Assembly: GCF_900607235.1 (NCBI RefSeq)
Contig: NZ_LR027855.1
Coordinates: forward strand, 62,001 to 126,000
DNA: 64,000 bases
DNA from: Olivibacter jilunii
GTDB lineage: Bacteria > Bacteroidota > Bacteroidia > Sphingobacteriales > Sphingobacteriaceae
Direction of reading: 5' to 3'
The notes below the pieces were generated by a model that saw only the letters and a program-made list of their open reading frames with translations, did not search any database and was not told where the DNA came from. Both the position numbers and the translations under genes were made by a program. Positions 17,547-26,116 of the stretch are shown piece after piece (position 1 is the stretch's first letter; every line of letters begins with the position of its first letter).

Positions 17547-17574
17547 TTGTGTACTAATTTTTTTAGTATATTTG
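17547..17574 (+). promoter_or_regulatory. Promoter of the exonuclease/GIY-YIG gene with embedded operator
   Basis: TTG at 17547-17549 and TATATTTG at 17567-17574 match the Bacteroidota -33 and -7 elements (TTTG and TAnnTTTG) with 17 bases between them. The palindrome TACTAA-N5-TTAGTA at 17552-17568 fills this spacer and overlaps the -7 box, a classic position for a repressor site. The -7 box ends 6 bases before the ATG at 17581, so the transcript would be leaderless or nearly so. Confidence 0.7.
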
Positions 17575-17580
17575 CTTTTC

Positions 17581-18969
17581 ATGGAATATGCTATTGTTGA
17601 CATTGAAACTACCGGGGGACATGCGGCCGGTCATGGGATTACCGAAATCGCCATTTGCATCCATGATGGTGCCGGTATATGCCATAGATATGAAACACTG
17701 GTCAATCCGCAAGCGCATATTCCACTTCATATTACGGCATTAACAGGCATCAGTAATGAAATGGTTGCAGATGCACCCACCTTCGCAGAAATAGCCGCCA
17801 CTGTCTACCAACTACTGGAAGGCCGGATATTTGTTGCACACAATGTAAACTTTGATTACTCCTTTATAAAGCATCACCTGGCCTTTTGTGGCTATAGTTG
17901 GAATGCCCCAAAATTGTGCACGGTCCGGTTAAGTCGCAAAGTATTACCGGGATTCGCGTCTTATAGTCTTGGCAAACTTTGTCAGCAATTGAATATCTCC
18001 ATAACCAATCGTCACCGCGCAGGTGGAGACGCTACTGCCACCGGGATTTTGTTCTCCCTATTGCTCGAGAAAGGCCCGGACGCTATACAGGCTATGCTTA
18101 AAAAAGCGTCGAAGGAACAGGCCTTGCCACCTAACTTACCCAAGGAAAATTTTGAACGCTTACCTCAAACACCCGGCGTCTATTACTTTAAAAACCAAAA
18201 GGGAAAAGTGGTATATGTTGGAAAAGCAAAAAACATCAAAAAACGAGTATCTGCTCATTTTTCAGGCCAAAATCCTAACCCGCAGCGTCAGAATTTCATG
18301 CGAAGCATTTATGATATTGACTTTGTTAGCTGCGGAACAGAATTGATAGCTTTTTTGCTCGAGGCAGTCGAAATCAAAAGATTATGGCCTGAAAACAACC
18401 GGGCCCTTAAACGCTTTGAACCCAAGTATGGGCTATATAGCTATGAGGATCAAAAAGGCTACATACGTGTGGCTATTGATAAGCATCAACGCTTTCAACA
18501 GGCTATTTGCAGTTTTGGAAATGTGATTGAAGCTTACAACCTCGTTAACAGACTGATCCAGGAGCATCGGCTCTGCCCCAAATTGAATGGAATACAAAAG
18601 GTGCAAGGTGCTTGTTTGAACCACAGAAATGGTGGCTGTTTGGGAGCCTGCATAGGAGAGGAGAATAAGGATAATTATAACGAGCGCATGTATACCGCTT
18701 TAGATAATTTAGCGAAAATGCTACCCTCCTTCATAATTCTTGATAAAGGTCGCACAGAAGACGAACAAAGTTGTATTTGGGTAGAAAAAGGCAAGCTCTT
18801 TGGCATCGGATACATTGCTTATGAAAGTGATATCAACCATCCTGAAGAGATAAAAGACACCTTAACCCGCTATCCATCCAACGATTATATGATGCACCTC
18901 ATCATGAGCTATGCCAATCAACATCCCAAGCTAATCCATCGATTAATGGAAGGGGAAGTAGTTGAGTAG
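17581..18969 (+). CDS. DEDDh exonuclease fused to GIY-YIG (UvrC/Cho-like) nuclease
   Basis: The 462-residue protein has two nuclease domains. Residues 1 to about 165 are a DnaQ-like 3'-5' exonuclease with Exo I DIETTG (Asp7, Glu9), Exo II HNVNFDYSFI and Exo III HRAGGDATAT. Residues about 190-280 are a GIY-YIG domain (GVYYFKNQKGKVVYVGKAKNIKKRV) related to the N-terminal incision domain of UvrC and to Cho. A C-terminal extension contains cysteines (CLNHRNGGCLGAC). Such proteins are thought to act in DNA repair. The ATG at 17581 is preferred over the upstream TTG at 17572, which lies inside the -7 promoter box. Its operator is shared with the dinB-dnaE operon it converges on. Confidence 0.9.
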   Translation: MEYAIVDIETTGGHAAGHGITEIAICIHDGAGICHRYETLVNPQAHIPLHITALTGISNEMVADAPTFAEIAATVYQLLEGRIFVAHNVNFDYSFIKHHLAFCGYSWNAPKLCTVRLSRKVLPGFASYSLGKLCQQLNISITNRHRAGGDATATGILFSLLLEKGPDAIQAMLKKASKEQALPPNLPKENFERLPQTPGVYYFKNQKGKVVYVGKAKNIKKRVSAHFSGQNPNPQRQNFMRSIYDIDFVSCGTELIAFLLEAVEIKRLWPENNRALKRFEPKYGLYSYEDQKGYIRVAIDKHQRFQQAICSFGNVIEAYNLVNRLIQEHRLCPKLNGIQKVQGACLNHRNGGCLGACIGEENKDNYNERMYTALDNLAKMLPSFIILDKGRTEDEQSCIWVEKGKLFGIGYIAYESDINHPEEIKDTLTRYPSNDYMMHLIMSYANQHPKLIHRLMEGEVVE

Positions 18970-19199
18970 AGAATTAGTTGAGTAGTCGGGTAGGGAAATA
19001 GTTGAGTAGGGAAATAGTTGAAATAGTCGGTAGAAATTCAACGGCTTAACCACTCAACAACTTAACCACTCAACAAATCAACTACTCGACGACTTAACTA
19101 CTCAACAACTTAACGGCTTAACCACTCAACAAATCAACTACTCAACAACTTAACCACTCAACAACTTAACTACTCAACAACTTAACTACCCCCTCAACT
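18970..19199. repeat. Octamer tandem array, 8-bp units NNNTYAAC, in a hairpin-like arrangement
   Basis: Between the convergent exonuclease and dnaE genes, 19035-19186 consists of 19 consecutive 8-bp units that all fit NNNTCAAC or NNNTTAAC (one unit ends CGAC), for example CACTCAAC and AACTTAAC. The preceding stretch, 18958-19025, holds the reverse-complement words (GTTGAGTA, TAGTTGAG). The whole gap can therefore fold into a long imperfect stem and could end transcription from both sides. No ORF is present. Confidence 0.9.
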
Positions 19200-22142
19200 T
19201 CACCCCAAAATAGGATTATCCTGAATGGGCAGTTTGGCAAATTTCTCCACCTCAATGCTTGGCACGCCAAAGTCTTCCACCACTTTACCTAATAGGAGAT
19301 AACAACCATGCCCTCTAAAAGGATAAATGGGCGTACGACCTGGAAAATGGGTGGTATCGAAAAAGTTTCCATGGACATCTAAAAATGTACCAAACCACAT
19401 TTTCTTTTGGTTCTTCATGCGTACCGTTTTTTCACACACATATAAACCGACCATTTTGACCGTTTGGTCGACATGTGTCAGCAAATCCTTTGCCATTACG
19501 TCGCCTCGATAGCTGGTTTTAAGCATATCAAACATCGTAAGCGTCAAGGGATAGCCTAGTAAATCAAGCTCTTGGTAGGCATCTTCCAAACGTTCATCCG
19601 GAAGTACCGGCATTGTGTATTGCTTATTAACGATGGCAAACAACTCCTTATCCCTTTTTGGTTTGACTGATCCGCCCATGTATAAATGACTATCCCATAG
19701 CAACTCTTTTTTCGTGCGCCCGGTAATACGTAACGCGCCAACTTTAATCAGTATAGCAAGTTGCTCTAAACCAATATCGGTTCGCCTAATAAAGTCGGTT
19801 AAATCTTGAAAAGGCCCGTTTGTTACCCGTTCGCAGGGAATCAATTTTATGAAATCTTCATTAAGTCCCTGTATACCTATTAAACCCAAATAAACGTCGC
19901 GTCCGTTAATGGTCACTTTTTCTTCGCTGTTATTAACACAGGGCAAATGAACGGTTGCACCGGTTTTTTTTAGCTCGTGCACATATAACCAGCGCGCATA
20001 GAACCCCCCATAATTATTCAATACCGCAACCATGAACTCCTGAGGAAAGTAGGTCTTAAGGTATAAACTTTGATAGCTCTCTATGGCGAAGCTAGCGGAA
20101 TGGGCCTTGGAAAAACTGTAGCCGGCAAAGCTGGAAATTTGGCGCCACACTTCTTCAGTGGTTGCTTCGTCTCGACCGATAGTCTTGGCACTGAGAAAAA
20201 ATTTATCTATTAATTTTTGAAAGGCATCTCGACTCCTATATTTACCACTCATCGCCCGTCTGAGCACATCGGCGTCGGCTAAATCCAATCCGGCGTAATG
20301 ATAGCATACCTTAATAACGTCTTCCTGGTACACCATCACGCCATAGGTTTCTTTTAGCTGTTCTTTCATAACAGGGTGTAAATAGATTACTTCATCCGGA
20401 TGATGAAAATAATAAATATAGTTTCGCATCATACCGGACGAGGCCACGCCGGGCCTGATGATCGAGCTGGCAGCGACTAAAGTCAGGTAATCCCGACATT
20501 GGAGCTTTTGTAAAAGCTGGCGCATCGCTGGTGATTCAATATAAAAACAGCCAATACTATCGCTCGCGCCTAAACGCCGATTGATCTGCTCATCGATCAG
20601 AAAAGACTTGACAGCGTGAATATCAACGGATTTCCCCTTGTTTTGTCGGATCAGTTCAACAGCTTCCTTGATATGGCCAATGCCGCGTTGACTCAAGATA
20701 TCGAATTTATCTAAACCGATGGCTTCGGCTGCATACATGTCCCATTGTACTGTCGGCATGGCCTTAGGCGGCAAGTCCAAAGCCGTATAAAAGGTGATCG
20801 GCTCTTCACTTACCAATACCCCTCCGGCATGGATGGATCGTTGATTTGGCATCCCATCCATTAGCTCGTAAACCGCCATGATTTTCCGGAAGGTCGGGTT
20901 GTCTTGATTGACTGCATCTTGTGTAGGATCGGTAAAGCTATCGATTTCGCTCTTTGGCAACCCAAGTACTTTACCAATTTCCCGTATGACGGAGCGTCCT
21001 TTGAAGGTGCTGATGGTGCCCAGCAGCCCGGTATAAGCAATACCGTAACGCTTTAACAGATATGCTTGTATTTCTTCCCGTTGATGCCAGCTATAATCGA
21101 TATCGAAATCGGGCGGACTGCTTCGTTTTGAATTTAAGAAGCGCTCAAAATATAGATCCAGGGCAATGGGATCAACATCGGTGATACCTAAACAATAAGC
21201 CACCGTGCTATTTGCCCCGGATCCGCGTCCTACGTGATAAAAACCACGACTTCTGGAATAATTGATAACGTCCCAGGTGATGAGAAAGTAGGCACAGAAA
21301 TCCATCTGTTTAACCACTGCAAGCTCGGCTTCAATTTTTTGCTTTGCCTGCATATTTCCGGAGCCATAACGATCATGCATACCTGCTAAGGTCAGTTTCT
21401 CCAGCAAAATAGCATCATTGGCTTTGCTATCGGTAAATGTTTGTTTGTTTAATCGACCAAAGTGGTAGTCATCGGTAGAGCAGTTTGCTAAAAGTTGATG
21501 GGCATTGTCCAAAAGATATTCATAACCGCTGTATAATCGCTGTAACTCTTCTAAGGGGCGTAAAGACTCCGTCTCTTGACAAATGGCGATTTCGTTCACC
21601 TTAGTCAATAATGTATTCTGATCAATCGCTCTTAAATACTGATGGAGCCGGTAATGTTTTTTATCCTGAAATGTAACCGAATAAAGCGCCACTAGTTTCC
21701 GTTGAATAAGGGCCATATCCAATCGGAAAAGCTGGTTAATATCTTGCGGTCGTACACCCACATATTCGTGTTCCGCCAGCATAAAGGACACTGCCTTGAA
21801 GGGATAAATCACATAGGCCTGTTCGAATACAGGCGCTCGCTCCGGCAATACCAAATCGCAGAGCTGGTGATAGGTTAAAAAATCGTTCAGCTCTTTCATA
21901 CCCTTCCTGTTCCGGGCGATGCCTATGTACAGTAACCGATCCTCCTTTCTGAATTCTATTCCCACCAAGGCACGTATTCCTGCAACTCGTGCCTTCAGGA
22001 TAAAGTCCATACTCGCTGAAGAGTTATTGATATCGGTTAAGACTATCTCAGAAATGCCGAGCTTACGCGCCTCTTCAATAAGTACATCTAAATCAATTGT
22101 ACCGTAACGCAAACTGTAAGAGCTATGAACATTCAAATACAT
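19200..22142 (-). CDS. Second DNA polymerase III alpha-like subunit (error-prone DnaE paralog)
   Basis: The 980-residue C-family polymerase is clearly shorter than a replicative DnaE (about 1160 or more). An N-terminal PHP domain (NVHSSYSLRYG) has lost part of the metal site: the usual TDH reads TDI. The palm contains GRGSGANS and PDFDID with two catalytic aspartates (about 343-348), and the third aspartate is in TVQWD (about 466). An HhH region and an OB-like segment (VKMVGLYVCEKTVRM) follow, while the tau-binding tail is absent. This fits the damage-tolerance DnaE that accompanies a Y-family polymerase. It starts one base after the dinB stop codon, so the two are translationally coupled. 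Confidence 0.9.
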   Translation of the reverse strand: MYLNVHSSYSLRYGTIDLDVLIEEARKLGISEIVLTDINNSSASMDFILKARVAGIRALVGIEFRKEDRLLYIGIARNRKGMKELNDFLTYHQLCDLVLPERAPVFEQAYVIYPFKAVSFMLAEHEYVGVRPQDINQLFRLDMALIQRKLVALYSVTFQDKKHYRLHQYLRAIDQNTLLTKVNEIAICQETESLRPLEELQRLYSGYEYLLDNAHQLLANCSTDDYHFGRLNKQTFTDSKANDAILLEKLTLAGMHDRYGSGNMQAKQKIEAELAVVKQMDFCAYFLITWDVINYSRSRGFYHVGRGSGANSTVAYCLGITDVDPIALDLYFERFLNSKRSSPPDFDIDYSWHQREEIQAYLLKRYGIAYTGLLGTISTFKGRSVIREIGKVLGLPKSEIDSFTDPTQDAVNQDNPTFRKIMAVYELMDGMPNQRSIHAGGVLVSEEPITFYTALDLPPKAMPTVQWDMYAAEAIGLDKFDILSQRGIGHIKEAVELIRQNKGKSVDIHAVKSFLIDEQINRRLGASDSIGCFYIESPAMRQLLQKLQCRDYLTLVAASSIIRPGVASSGMMRNYIYYFHHPDEVIYLHPVMKEQLKETYGVMVYQEDVIKVCYHYAGLDLADADVLRRAMSGKYRSRDAFQKLIDKFFLSAKTIGRDEATTEEVWRQISSFAGYSFSKAHSASFAIESYQSLYLKTYFPQEFMVAVLNNYGGFYARWLYVHELKKTGATVHLPCVNNSEEKVTINGRDVYLGLIGIQGLNEDFIKLIPCERVTNGPFQDLTDFIRRTDIGLEQLAILIKVGALRITGRTKKELLWDSHLYMGGSVKPKRDKELFAIVNKQYTMPVLPDERLEDAYQELDLLGYPLTLTMFDMLKTSYRGDVMAKDLLTHVDQTVKMVGLYVCEKTVRMKNQKKMWFGTFLDVHGNFFDTTHFPGRTPIYPFRGHGCYLLLGKVVEDFGVPSIEVEKFAKLPIQDNPILG

Positions 22143-22143
22143 A

Positions 22144-23310
22144 CTACCAATCCAACTGTAAAGAAGAAGCTAAGCCGATAGCCTCTTCACCGTACCGATT
22201 GCGTACCTTGTCCATCACCTGATACAAACTATAATGCTTTTCGGAGGCTGAATAAAGCTGAATCTGCTCGTGCCCACCTACCAAATGGGATAATTTGACG
22301 CCGATCAATCGAAGTAACATACGGCGATTGTATACGGCTTCAAAAAGTTCTTTGGCTTTCGATATCAATATATGATCCAACGAGGTATACGCAATTTTTG
22401 CCTGCTTTGTAACCGTTTCGAAATTGGCATAACGGATGGTAACGGTAATACAAGCAGTTAACTTATGTTTTTGTCGAAGCTCGTAGGCAATGCTGGTCAC
22501 CATCGCTACTAAAAGTTCCTTAATCACTTCGATGTTCATACTATCGGCTGCAAAAGTACGCTGTGTTCCGATTGACTGTTGCTCTCGATAAGGTACTACC
22601 GGTGTGGGGTCGACGCCATTTGCCCGGTGCCAAAGGGTCAGGCCAGCTTGTCCCATCGCTTTAAACATCATCTCGGGTGGAATCTCAATAAGCTTGCGAA
22701 TATAACGAACTCCCATTTCACTCAACTTGATGTAGGTAGCGGATCCTAATCCCGGGATTTTTTTTATAGATAGGGGATCCATAAAAGAGCGTATATCCCG
22801 AGATTGCACTTCTTGTTCTCCATTCGGTTTGCATTCATTCGTCGCCATCTTCGATACCGTTTTGTTAATGGATAAGCCGAAAGATATCGGTAAACCCGTT
22901 TCTTTTATAATCAACTGTCGCAATTCGTGCGCGTATTTCATGCAACCAAAGAAGCGATCCATGCCCGTTAAATCAATGTAATGTTCATCAATGCTCGCCT
23001 TTTCGAACAAGGGGACTTTCTCCGCCAAAATTGCCGTAATCTCCTGTGATGCTTTGGTGTAATCGTCCATATTACCCTTTATGAAGATAGCATGTGGACA
23101 AAGCTGTTTTGCCATACGGGAGGGCATGGCTGCGTGTACCCCAAATTTACGGGCTTCATAGCTGCAAGAAGTAACCACTCCTCTATCAGAGGTACCACCA
23201 ATAATAACAGGCTTTCCCGTCAAGCTGCTGTTTTTACGCATCTCAACAGATACAAAAAAGGCGTCCTGATCCATGTGGATGATATGCTTATTTTGCTCCA
23301 TCTCGTTCAT
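22144..23310 (-). CDS. dinB: Y-family DNA polymerase (DinB/Pol IV-like)
   Basis: The 388-residue translesion polymerase shows the Y-family active-site motifs HMDQDAFFVSVE and KASIDEHYIDLTG. It also has the helix-hairpin-helix IKKIPGLGSATYIKLSEMG and a little-finger domain beginning near QSIGTQRTF. The C-terminus ends LQLDW, which may serve as a short beta-clamp-binding tail. Y-family enzymes copy past DNA damage with low fidelity. The gene is first in an operon with the dnaE paralog. Its start at 23310 follows a promoter overlapped by a TACTAA-N5-TTAGTA palindrome, suggesting control by the same regulator as the exonuclease gene. It could equally be called ImuB-like, since it pairs with a DnaE, but the catalytic residues are intact. 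Confidence 0.93.
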   Translation of the reverse strand: MNEMEQNKHIIHMDQDAFFVSVEMRKNSSLTGKPVIIGGTSDRGVVTSCSYEARKFGVHAAMPSRMAKQLCPHAIFIKGNMDDYTKASQEITAILAEKVPLFEKASIDEHYIDLTGMDRFFGCMKYAHELRQLIIKETGLPISFGLSINKTVSKMATNECKPNGEQEVQSRDIRSFMDPLSIKKIPGLGSATYIKLSEMGVRYIRKLIEIPPEMMFKAMGQAGLTLWHRANGVDPTPVVPYREQQSIGTQRTFAADSMNIEVIKELLVAMVTSIAYELRQKHKLTACITVTIRYANFETVTKQAKIAYTSLDHILISKAKELFEAVYNRRMLLRLIGVKLSHLVGGHEQIQLYSASEKHYSLYQVMDKVRNRYGEEAIGLASSLQLDW

Positions 23311-23316
23311 TTTACA

Positions 23317-23345
23317 TCACAAATATATACTAATATTTTTAGTAT
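23317..23345 (-). promoter_or_regulatory. Operator and -7 box of the dinB-dnaE operon
   Basis: ATACTAA at 23327-23333 and TTAGTAT at 23339-23345 form a perfect 7-bp inverted repeat with a 5-bp spacer. Its inner 6-bp half-sites are identical to those upstream of the exonuclease gene. On the minus strand the -7 element TATATTTG overlaps the downstream half-site and lies nine bases before the ATG. A clear -33 TTG at the right distance is not evident. Confidence 0.7.
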
Positions 23346-25360: not shown

Positions 25361-26116
25361 ATGAGAGCAATTTGGACAGGCGCTATCGGCTTTGGTTTAG
25401 TAAATATACCGGTTAAATTATTTAGTGCTACAGAACAAAGTCGACTGGACTTCGACATGTTGGACAGAAAGGATCATTCCAGAGTCCGCTATCAACGGGT
25501 AAATGAAAACACCGGAAAGGAAGTAGCTTGGGAAAATATCGTCAAAGGCTATATGTTGAATGACAATTATATCATACTGGAAGATACGGATTTCGAGGAG
25601 GCAAGTCCTGAAAAAAATAAAATGATCAATATCCAATCCTTCGTAAAGGAAAAAGAGGTGGATAGCATGTATTTTGAAACTCCCTATTACATTGAGCCGC
25701 AAAAGGGTGGACAAAAGGCGTACCATCTATTGGTAAAAGCACTCGAGAAGGCAGGCATGGTAGGGCTTGCGACCTTTGTTATGCGTGCAGGCGAAAATCT
25801 CTGTATGATTCGGGCAAAAGAAAATATTTTGATCCTTAATAAGCTTCGCTTTGAACAGGAAATACGCTCACCCGAGGAACTAAACATCCCTCAAAATGTA
25901 AAATTGACGAAAGCGGAAATCGATATGGCTCTCGAGCTCGTGAATAGGCATAGCACCTCTTTCGATGTTTCTGCTTACAAAGACGAATACACAGACGAAC
26001 TGCTTAAGATTATCAAGGAAAGAGCAAAAGGTAAACGACCAAAAGTACGTAAGATGAAAGTGAAGGCCACGCGTACCAACGATTTATTGGAACAATTGAA
26101 AGCAAGTTTGGGGTAG
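25361..26116 (+). CDS. ku: Ku protein (bacterial non-homologous end joining)
   Basis: The 251-residue protein begins MRAIWTGAIGFGLVNIPVKL, the hallmark start of bacterial Ku, and continues through the Ku core with HLLVKALEKAGMVGLA and ENLCMIRA. It has the usual basic C-terminal tail, RAKGKRPKVRKMKVKATR. Ku homodimers bind DNA ends and recruit the ligase LigD for end joining. Length is typical. No ligD gene is present in the window, so the partner must lie elsewhere. The gene stands alone in this block. Confidence 0.96.
   Translation: MRAIWTGAIGFGLVNIPVKLFSATEQSRLDFDMLDRKDHSRVRYQRVNENTGKEVAWENIVKGYMLNDNYIILEDTDFEEASPEKNKMINIQSFVKEKEVDSMYFETPYYIEPQKGGQKAYHLLVKALEKAGMVGLATFVMRAGENLCMIRAKENILILNKLRFEQEIRSPEELNIPQNVKLTKAEIDMALELVNRHSTSFDVSAYKDEYTDELLKIIKERAKGKRPKVRKMKVKATRTNDLLEQLKASLG

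Follow-up and report, generated by a model that had tools for sequence, protein, structure and literature searches.

Two copies of one palindrome stand before two DNA repair operons that point towards each other in Olivibacter jilunii, a member of the Sphingobacteriaceae: are they operators, and which repressor would read them? The palindromes (TACTAA-N5-TTAGTA) lie in a stretch of 64,000 nucleotides (assembly GCF_900607235.1, contig NZ_LR027855.1, positions 62,001 to 126,000 of the forward strand; hereafter the window), one before a gene for an exonuclease fused to a GIY-YIG nuclease domain and the other before a dinB-dnaE operon. We consider it very probable that both are SOS operators of the CTAA-N5-TTAG type that belong to the non-canonical LexA of Bacteroidetes, a protein with an XRE-type helix-turn-helix (HTH) domain and an S24 peptidase domain, whose gene at C6:288010-288777, on another contig of this genome, has an operator of its own. 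This regulon reading is well supported at the level of sequence.

Palindromes before facing repair operons

We found that the full palindrome matches the window exactly twice and nowhere besides, as a sequence-only reading of this DNA had claimed, and in 100 dinucleotide shuffles of the window it occurred 0.01 times on average, with 0 of 100 shuffles reaching two copies. The core CTAA-N5-TTAG is present in the same two places only. In window coordinates, the block is arranged as follows.

17552-17568, no strand assigned: operator TACTAATTTTTTTAGTA, 12 bp before the exonuclease ATG (motif search)
17567-17574, plus strand: -7 box TATATTTG (TAnnTTTG), with the last 2 bp of the exonuclease operator common to both
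17581-18969, plus strand: DnaQ-type 3'-5' exonuclease fused to a UvrC/Cho-type GIY-YIG domain, 462 amino acids (Pfam)
19200-22142, minus strand: dnaE-like DNA polymerase III alpha, short form, 980 amino acids (Pfam DNA_pol3_alpha, finger, HHH_6, PHP)
22144-23310, minus strand: dinB, Y-family DNA polymerase IV, 388 amino acids (Pfam IMS, IMS_C; NCBIfam PRK02406 over cut-off)
23320-23327, minus strand: -7 box TATATTTG of the dinB-dnaE promoter, which abuts the operator (offset 0)
23328-23344, no strand assigned: operator TACTAATATTTTTAGTA (plus-strand letters), 17 bp before the dinB ATG (motif search)

The exonuclease gene is read on the plus strand (17581-18969) and dinB-dnaE on the minus strand (23310-19200); the operons are convergent and their promoters do face each other, as had been proposed. 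The exonuclease/GIY-YIG protein matches Pfam RNase_T (E=1.1e-30) and GIY-YIG (E=3.3e-8), its NCBIfam matches to PRK07883 (the DnaQ-UvrC type fusion) and to UvrC/Cho are all under the curated cut-offs, and candidate catalytic motifs were spotted by eye. The motifs MDQDAFF and SIDE are present in the window DinB, and PDFDID in the window DnaE; based on these motifs, DinB looks catalytically competent, in contrast to ImuB.

A probable repressor gene and a conserved operator

A Pfam search for S24 peptidases across the whole genome gave three matches, located on C2, C5 and C6. None of these contigs is C8, which carries the window; the search thus placed no S24 gene in the window, in agreement with the S24 part of the earlier claim that neither lexA nor an S24-peptidase gene is present here. 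The same reading had held that the regulator must be encoded elsewhere, and we located a gene that fits.

C6:288010-288777, transcribed away from the operator: XRE-HTH/S24 repressor gene (Pfam)

An exact operator stands at C6:288798, 20 bp upstream of the start of this gene. In the protein, HTH_3 covers residues 8-62 and Peptidase_S24 residues 105-209, both over the Pfam cut-off; the Pfam matches are HTH_3, HTH_31, HTH_19 and Peptidase_S24 only, with none to a LexA-type winged-helix domain. All 14 aligned relatives, a paralogue on C2 included, have the cleavage site Ala106-Gly107 and the catalytic residues Ser143 and Lys182 unchanged. When we turned to regulator loci from named genomes (the best 80 of 326 confirmed loci), we found Ala-Gly, Ser and Lys retained in 80/80, and CTAA-N5-TTAG no more than 150 bp upstream of the regulator in 80/80 as well, at a distance of 20-31 bp in 79 of them and 110 bp in one. 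The closest relative among these loci is from Olivibacter sp. XZL3 (98%). The C2 paralogue, a second S24/XRE protein (C2:444691-445449, locus L018), is 37% identical to the C6 repressor; in its promoter, an imperfect dyad can be made out by eye around ACCATTGGT.

To follow the operator through the family, we used a sample of 121 Sphingobacteriaceae genomes, fetched the 30 best-scoring loci for each query, and searched 200 bp upstream. The regulator has matches in 114 of the 121 genomes, dinB in 115 and the exonuclease query in all 121, the weakest of which are UvrC-type proteins that match through the GIY-YIG half only. CTAA-N5-TTAG is present upstream in 30/30 regulator, 29/30 exonuclease (the miss is L119) and 30/30 dinB loci, or 89 of 90 overall; exonuclease identities among the fetched loci go down to approximately 54%. 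In contrast, shuffled sequences gave means of 0.15 (regulator), 0.25 (exonuclease) and 0.28 (dinB) per 30 loci, with maxima of 3, 3 and 2. Among 48 permutations of the half-sites, the runner-up scores were 7, 1 and 2, in the same order, and other spacers from 0 to 11 gave at most 0, 1 and 3, so that only the spacer of 5 is conserved. The sequence-only reading had made conservation upstream of orthologous genes a check on itself, and in this family the motif is kept. Outside the family, in a phylum sample of 148 genomes, 6 of 24 regulator relatives have the operator upstream and the rest have other dyads or none, which agrees with the description in the available text of Sanchez-Osuna et al. 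2021 (PMC8565304).

The operator is often kept in register with the -7 box, as judged by sequence. Housekeeping promoters of Bacteroidetes have a TAnnTTTG -7 box at -12 to -5, according to the accessible part of PMC9723704. The earlier claim was that the operator overlaps this box at both window promoters; this holds at the exonuclease promoter, where 2 bp are shared, and does not hold at dinB, where the two only abut. In the O. jilunii genome, the start of TAnnTTTG falls -2 to +1 bp from where the operator ends at 8 of the 9 exact sites; among 17 tabulated site-gene pairs, 11 show this spacing. In relatives, it begins 0, 2 or 3 bp past TTAG in 25/30 dinB and 12/29 exonuclease loci, and in shuffled tails it falls in those positions in approximately 1-2%. 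With this register, a bound repressor would mask the -7 element at most target promoters. If the box lies at -12 to -5 here too, leaders of approximately 2 nt (exonuclease) and 5 nt (dinB) are predicted; leaderless mRNAs make up just 5.5% in the flavobacterium of PMC9723704, in the part of that paper available.

Repressor binding, cleavage and induction we infer from the published family. As long as the cell's DNA is intact, each promoter would have its -7 element occupied by a repressor dimer and so be closed to RNA polymerase. After damage, RecA filaments would lead the repressor to cleave itself at Ala106-Gly107 by its Ser143/Lys182 dyad, and the cleaved repressor would leave the operators. 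The exonuclease/GIY-YIG enzyme and DinB-DnaE would then be made along with RecA, ImuA-ImuB-DnaE2 and the products of other repair genes.

Further targets and rival explanations

The exact palindrome occurs nine times in the genome, each time within approximately 100 bp upstream of a gene start. A genome scan for the motif near repair genes and an S24 regulator had been suggested by the sequence-only reading, and its outcome was as expected: besides dinB and the S24/XRE regulator, exact sites precede two imuA-imuB-dnaE2 operons (L019 and L021, the latter named by resemblance) and a PA0069-family radical SAM gene (NCBIfam, over cut-off). Exact sites are also found before a 162-amino-acid dinB remnant and a DUF2272-patatin pair. 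Two further dinB-dnaE operons (on C9 and C2) and recA (L027) are preceded by core or near-core sites, with exact sites at recA in three congeners; recA and the additional dnaE genes were recognised by eye from sequence. A TIGR03916-TIGR03915 repair pair has an upstream site with one mismatch and a second CTAA-N5-TTAG after it. Taken together, three dinB-dnaE and two imuA-type operons, plus the dinB remnant, bear operators in one genome.

Window 17552-23344, C9:80043, C2:592468, C7:31435, C8:298044 and C7:7052: operators of the polymerase operons and the remnant
C8:183809-184654 (L025): HD-domain protein gene with an exact operator

Several observations weigh against this reading. The 30-locus samples are the top-scoring loci and not random ones, and TAnnTTTG stands beside the regulator-gene operator in 0/30 loci of relatives; the regulator's own promoter is, by its sequence, built differently from the target promoters. 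In the window, 39 of 100 shuffles yield at least two copies of the core, and when up to 2 mismatches are allowed there are 8 matches against 4.24 expected, a number that 6 of 100 shuffles reach; at window level, significance is thus reached by the 12-base motif but not by the 8-base core alone. With up to 1 mismatch, the O. jilunii genome has 35 sites as compared to 53 for a reversed-pattern control, and exact sites summed over 41 genomes number 68 against 87. Other counts run the opposite way: 9 exact sites against 5 and 14 matches to TRCTAA-N5-TTAGYA against 9 in the O. jilunii genome, and 67 exact sites against 54 in 25 family genomes alone. The control is a different palindrome and hence a weak test. 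We dropped genome-wide counting as proof of a regulon; because raw counts do not beat the control, position, orthology and the regulator carry the case.

The same mismatch-tolerant counts, and a core that is not rare in the window, are what one would expect if the palindromes were promoter furniture or chance, AT-rich dyads beside TAnnTTTG boxes without a regulator. However, orthologous promoters keep the half-sites and the fixed 5-bp spacer at 45-60% protein identity, and shuffles and permuted half-sites do not, which makes this account highly improbable. There is a small chance that another XRE or S24 repressor binds the window sites, such as the C2 paralogue: the genome has two further S24 matches, the paralogue keeps Ala-Gly, Ser and Lys, and paralogy is frequent in this repressor group (PMC8565304, available text). 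In contrast, the operator is present at the C6 gene itself and at its orthologues (80/80 named loci), while the C2 paralogue has different residues in its helix-turn-helix region, and CTAA-N5-TTAG was not found in locus L018 or upstream of that gene. The N-terminal part of the repressor is of the phage-repressor HTH type (Pfam HTH_3; the best NCBIfam match, RstR, is below cut-off), as it might be if a phage-type regulator with another trigger co-regulated the window operons in response to a cue other than damage. This is very unlikely given that the regulon includes recA, three dinB and two imuA-type operons, and that repressor relatives in other Bacteroidetes are mitomycin-inducible in the available text of PMC8565304. 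We retain the SOS repressor encoded on C6 as the most probable reader of both window palindromes.

Beyond the polymerase operons, 9 of the 14 loci scored for relatives of the HD-domain gene have an operator no more than 250 bp away, a count that omits 6 fetched loci whose matches are weak and come from a longer paralogue. A GHKL ATPase gene and the DUF2272-patatin pair (C7:322144-326097, L020; Pfam HATPase_c_3, DUF2272 and Patatin) have two operators between them, at C7:323310 and 323407, with 97 bp from one to the other. Of 20 GHKL loci, the 8 that score best have an upstream operator and the remaining 12 have none. In the congener G004, the GHKL ATPase and DUF2272-patatin sets are in separate places, each with an operator. 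A strong-match DUF2272 relative was found in 4/301 family genomes; in 2 of these, an operator precedes it. We set aside a defence-system reading of this locus, as none of the proteins scanned with PADLOC was matched; the GHKL ATPase and the DUF2272-patatin pair remain candidate targets by sequence.

We discarded the one-mismatch sites of an array at C5:180876-181407 as unrelated repeats: here six copies of TAATAAGGGAGTTAGTA within approximately 530 bp make up a short array of repeats resembling the operator. Several other one-mismatch sites, inside genes or distant from gene starts, were excluded as targets. A TGCTAA-N5-TTAGTA site at C2:24417-24433 (L029) is 52 bp before a gene for a 308-amino-acid protein, which has no Pfam match and has a Rpn/PD-(D/E)XK look by eye only. 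Among the operator-bearing polymerase loci, the C7:31435 copy adjoins genes that look conjugative by eye. In the window, tandem repeats with units of 8, 16, 24, 40 and 56 bp, for example CTTAACTACTCAACAA, fill 18953-19189 between the convergent exonuclease and dnaE genes. A Ku gene (25361-26116, Pfam Ku E=1.3e-51) is approximately 2 kb from dinB, past a glutamate dehydrogenase gene; the core, searched over the whole window, is absent from it.

Known systems and a small GIY-YIG protein

The available text of PMC8565304 describes two operator types in Bacteroidetes, CTAA-N5-TTAG and GGA-N5-TCC. The first belongs to an autoregulated XRE/CI-like S24 repressor, with electrophoretic mobility shift assays on arm and spacer mutants and with mitomycin induction in other species. 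Its regulon holds recA, dinB, imuA-imuB-dnaE2, splB, COG1573-COG4277 and the GIY-YIG exonuclease COG0847, and that text counts the Sphingobacteriaceae among families in which regulons of this kind are large. Because this paper reports the operator, the repressor family and both kinds of target, the window block is a new instance of a described system. The operator does differ from the usual LexA box, CTGT-N8-ACAG, as the sequence-only reading had remarked; as a novelty it was anticipated in 2021.

The O. jilunii system shares with the published group the operator core, the 5-bp spacer, the XRE/CI-type HTH with S24, the Ala-Gly and Ser-Lys residues, autoregulation and targets. As compared to the available text of PMC8565304, it combines, within one genome, five polymerase operons with operators and a dinB remnant; it also has a degenerate GIY-YIG protein paired with the repressor, and extra candidate targets (the HD protein, the GHKL ATPase and DUF2272-patatin), some of which the supplement may list. 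That text also places the dinB-dnaE arrangement under GGA-N5-TCC, whereas here it is under CTAA-N5-TTAG. In the open-licence literature, we found nothing on point for patatin with SOS or LexA or for imuA-dnaE2 on conjugative elements, and no paper on an Olivibacter SOS response.

The likeness to the canonical E. coli-type LexA system lies in an S24 repressor, a damage-sensing logic and translesion polymerases as targets; the differences are that the C6 repressor has HTH_3 and no match to the LexA winged helix, and that its operator is CTAA-N5-TTAG instead of CTGT-N8-ACAG. E. coli Cho is a UvrC-like SOS nuclease to which, by sequence match, the window exonuclease is analogous in its GIY-YIG half.

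The gene across the operator from the C6 repressor encodes a second, much smaller protein of this fold.

C6:288878-289192 (L022:5879-6223), divergent from the repressor gene with the operator between: small GIY-YIG-fold protein of approximately 110 amino acids

In 79/80 named regulator loci, a small GIY-YIG gene is divergent from the regulator across the same operator. The match of the protein to Pfam GIY-YIG is under the cut-off (E=0.0044). Its structure model (mean predicted local distance difference test score, pLDDT, of 82.8) gave UPF0213 BH0048 (1zg2, E=2.6e-4) as the best match in the PDB and the sole one at E<=0.001, with Slx1 and UvrC matched weakly; according to this model, the protein has the GIY-YIG fold, of the UPF0213/YhbQ type. 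When it was aligned to 5 ordinary GIY-YIG relatives, the catalytic Glu was present in 0/79, the Tyr of YIG in 0/79 and the Arg in 10/79 (lost in 69/79); the protein retains a TD-x-NR motif and one like N-P-x-W. By sequence, the protein looks like a dead nuclease. In the phylum sample, the gene was found in the fetched flanks of 3/3 family regulator loci and 0/24 others, and thus seems to be confined to the family. In the main text of PMC8565304, GIY-YIG is mentioned once, for the exonuclease, and the open-licence literature held nothing on point for a degenerate GIY-YIG protein with SOS.

We tentatively raise the possibility, itself rather doubtful, that the Sphingobacteriaceae SOS repressor is half of a conserved two-gene switch, in which the dead GIY-YIG protein, divergent from the shared operator, partners the repressor or the damage signal. 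Under this hypothesis, candidate roles are those of a corepressor, an anti-repressor or a reader of DNA junctions, and a nuclease fold would have been recruited for SOS control. In Acinetobacter, DdrR is a corepressor of UmuDAb (PMC11332147, available text); this pair is similar, by analogy only, in joining an S24-family repressor of error-prone polymerases to a lineage-restricted small protein, and it differs in that DdrR, in that text, shows no sign of being GIY-YIG, while the partner role here is putative.

A reading of raw sequence thus independently recovered a published regulon and led to its regulator, passing three sequence-level checks. The regulon gains testable items: an exonuclease-GIY-YIG fusion and a DinB-DnaE pair under facing promoters, five polymerase operons, and a dead-nuclease protein paired with the repressor. 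This small protein may prove to be an overlooked part of the family's SOS control.

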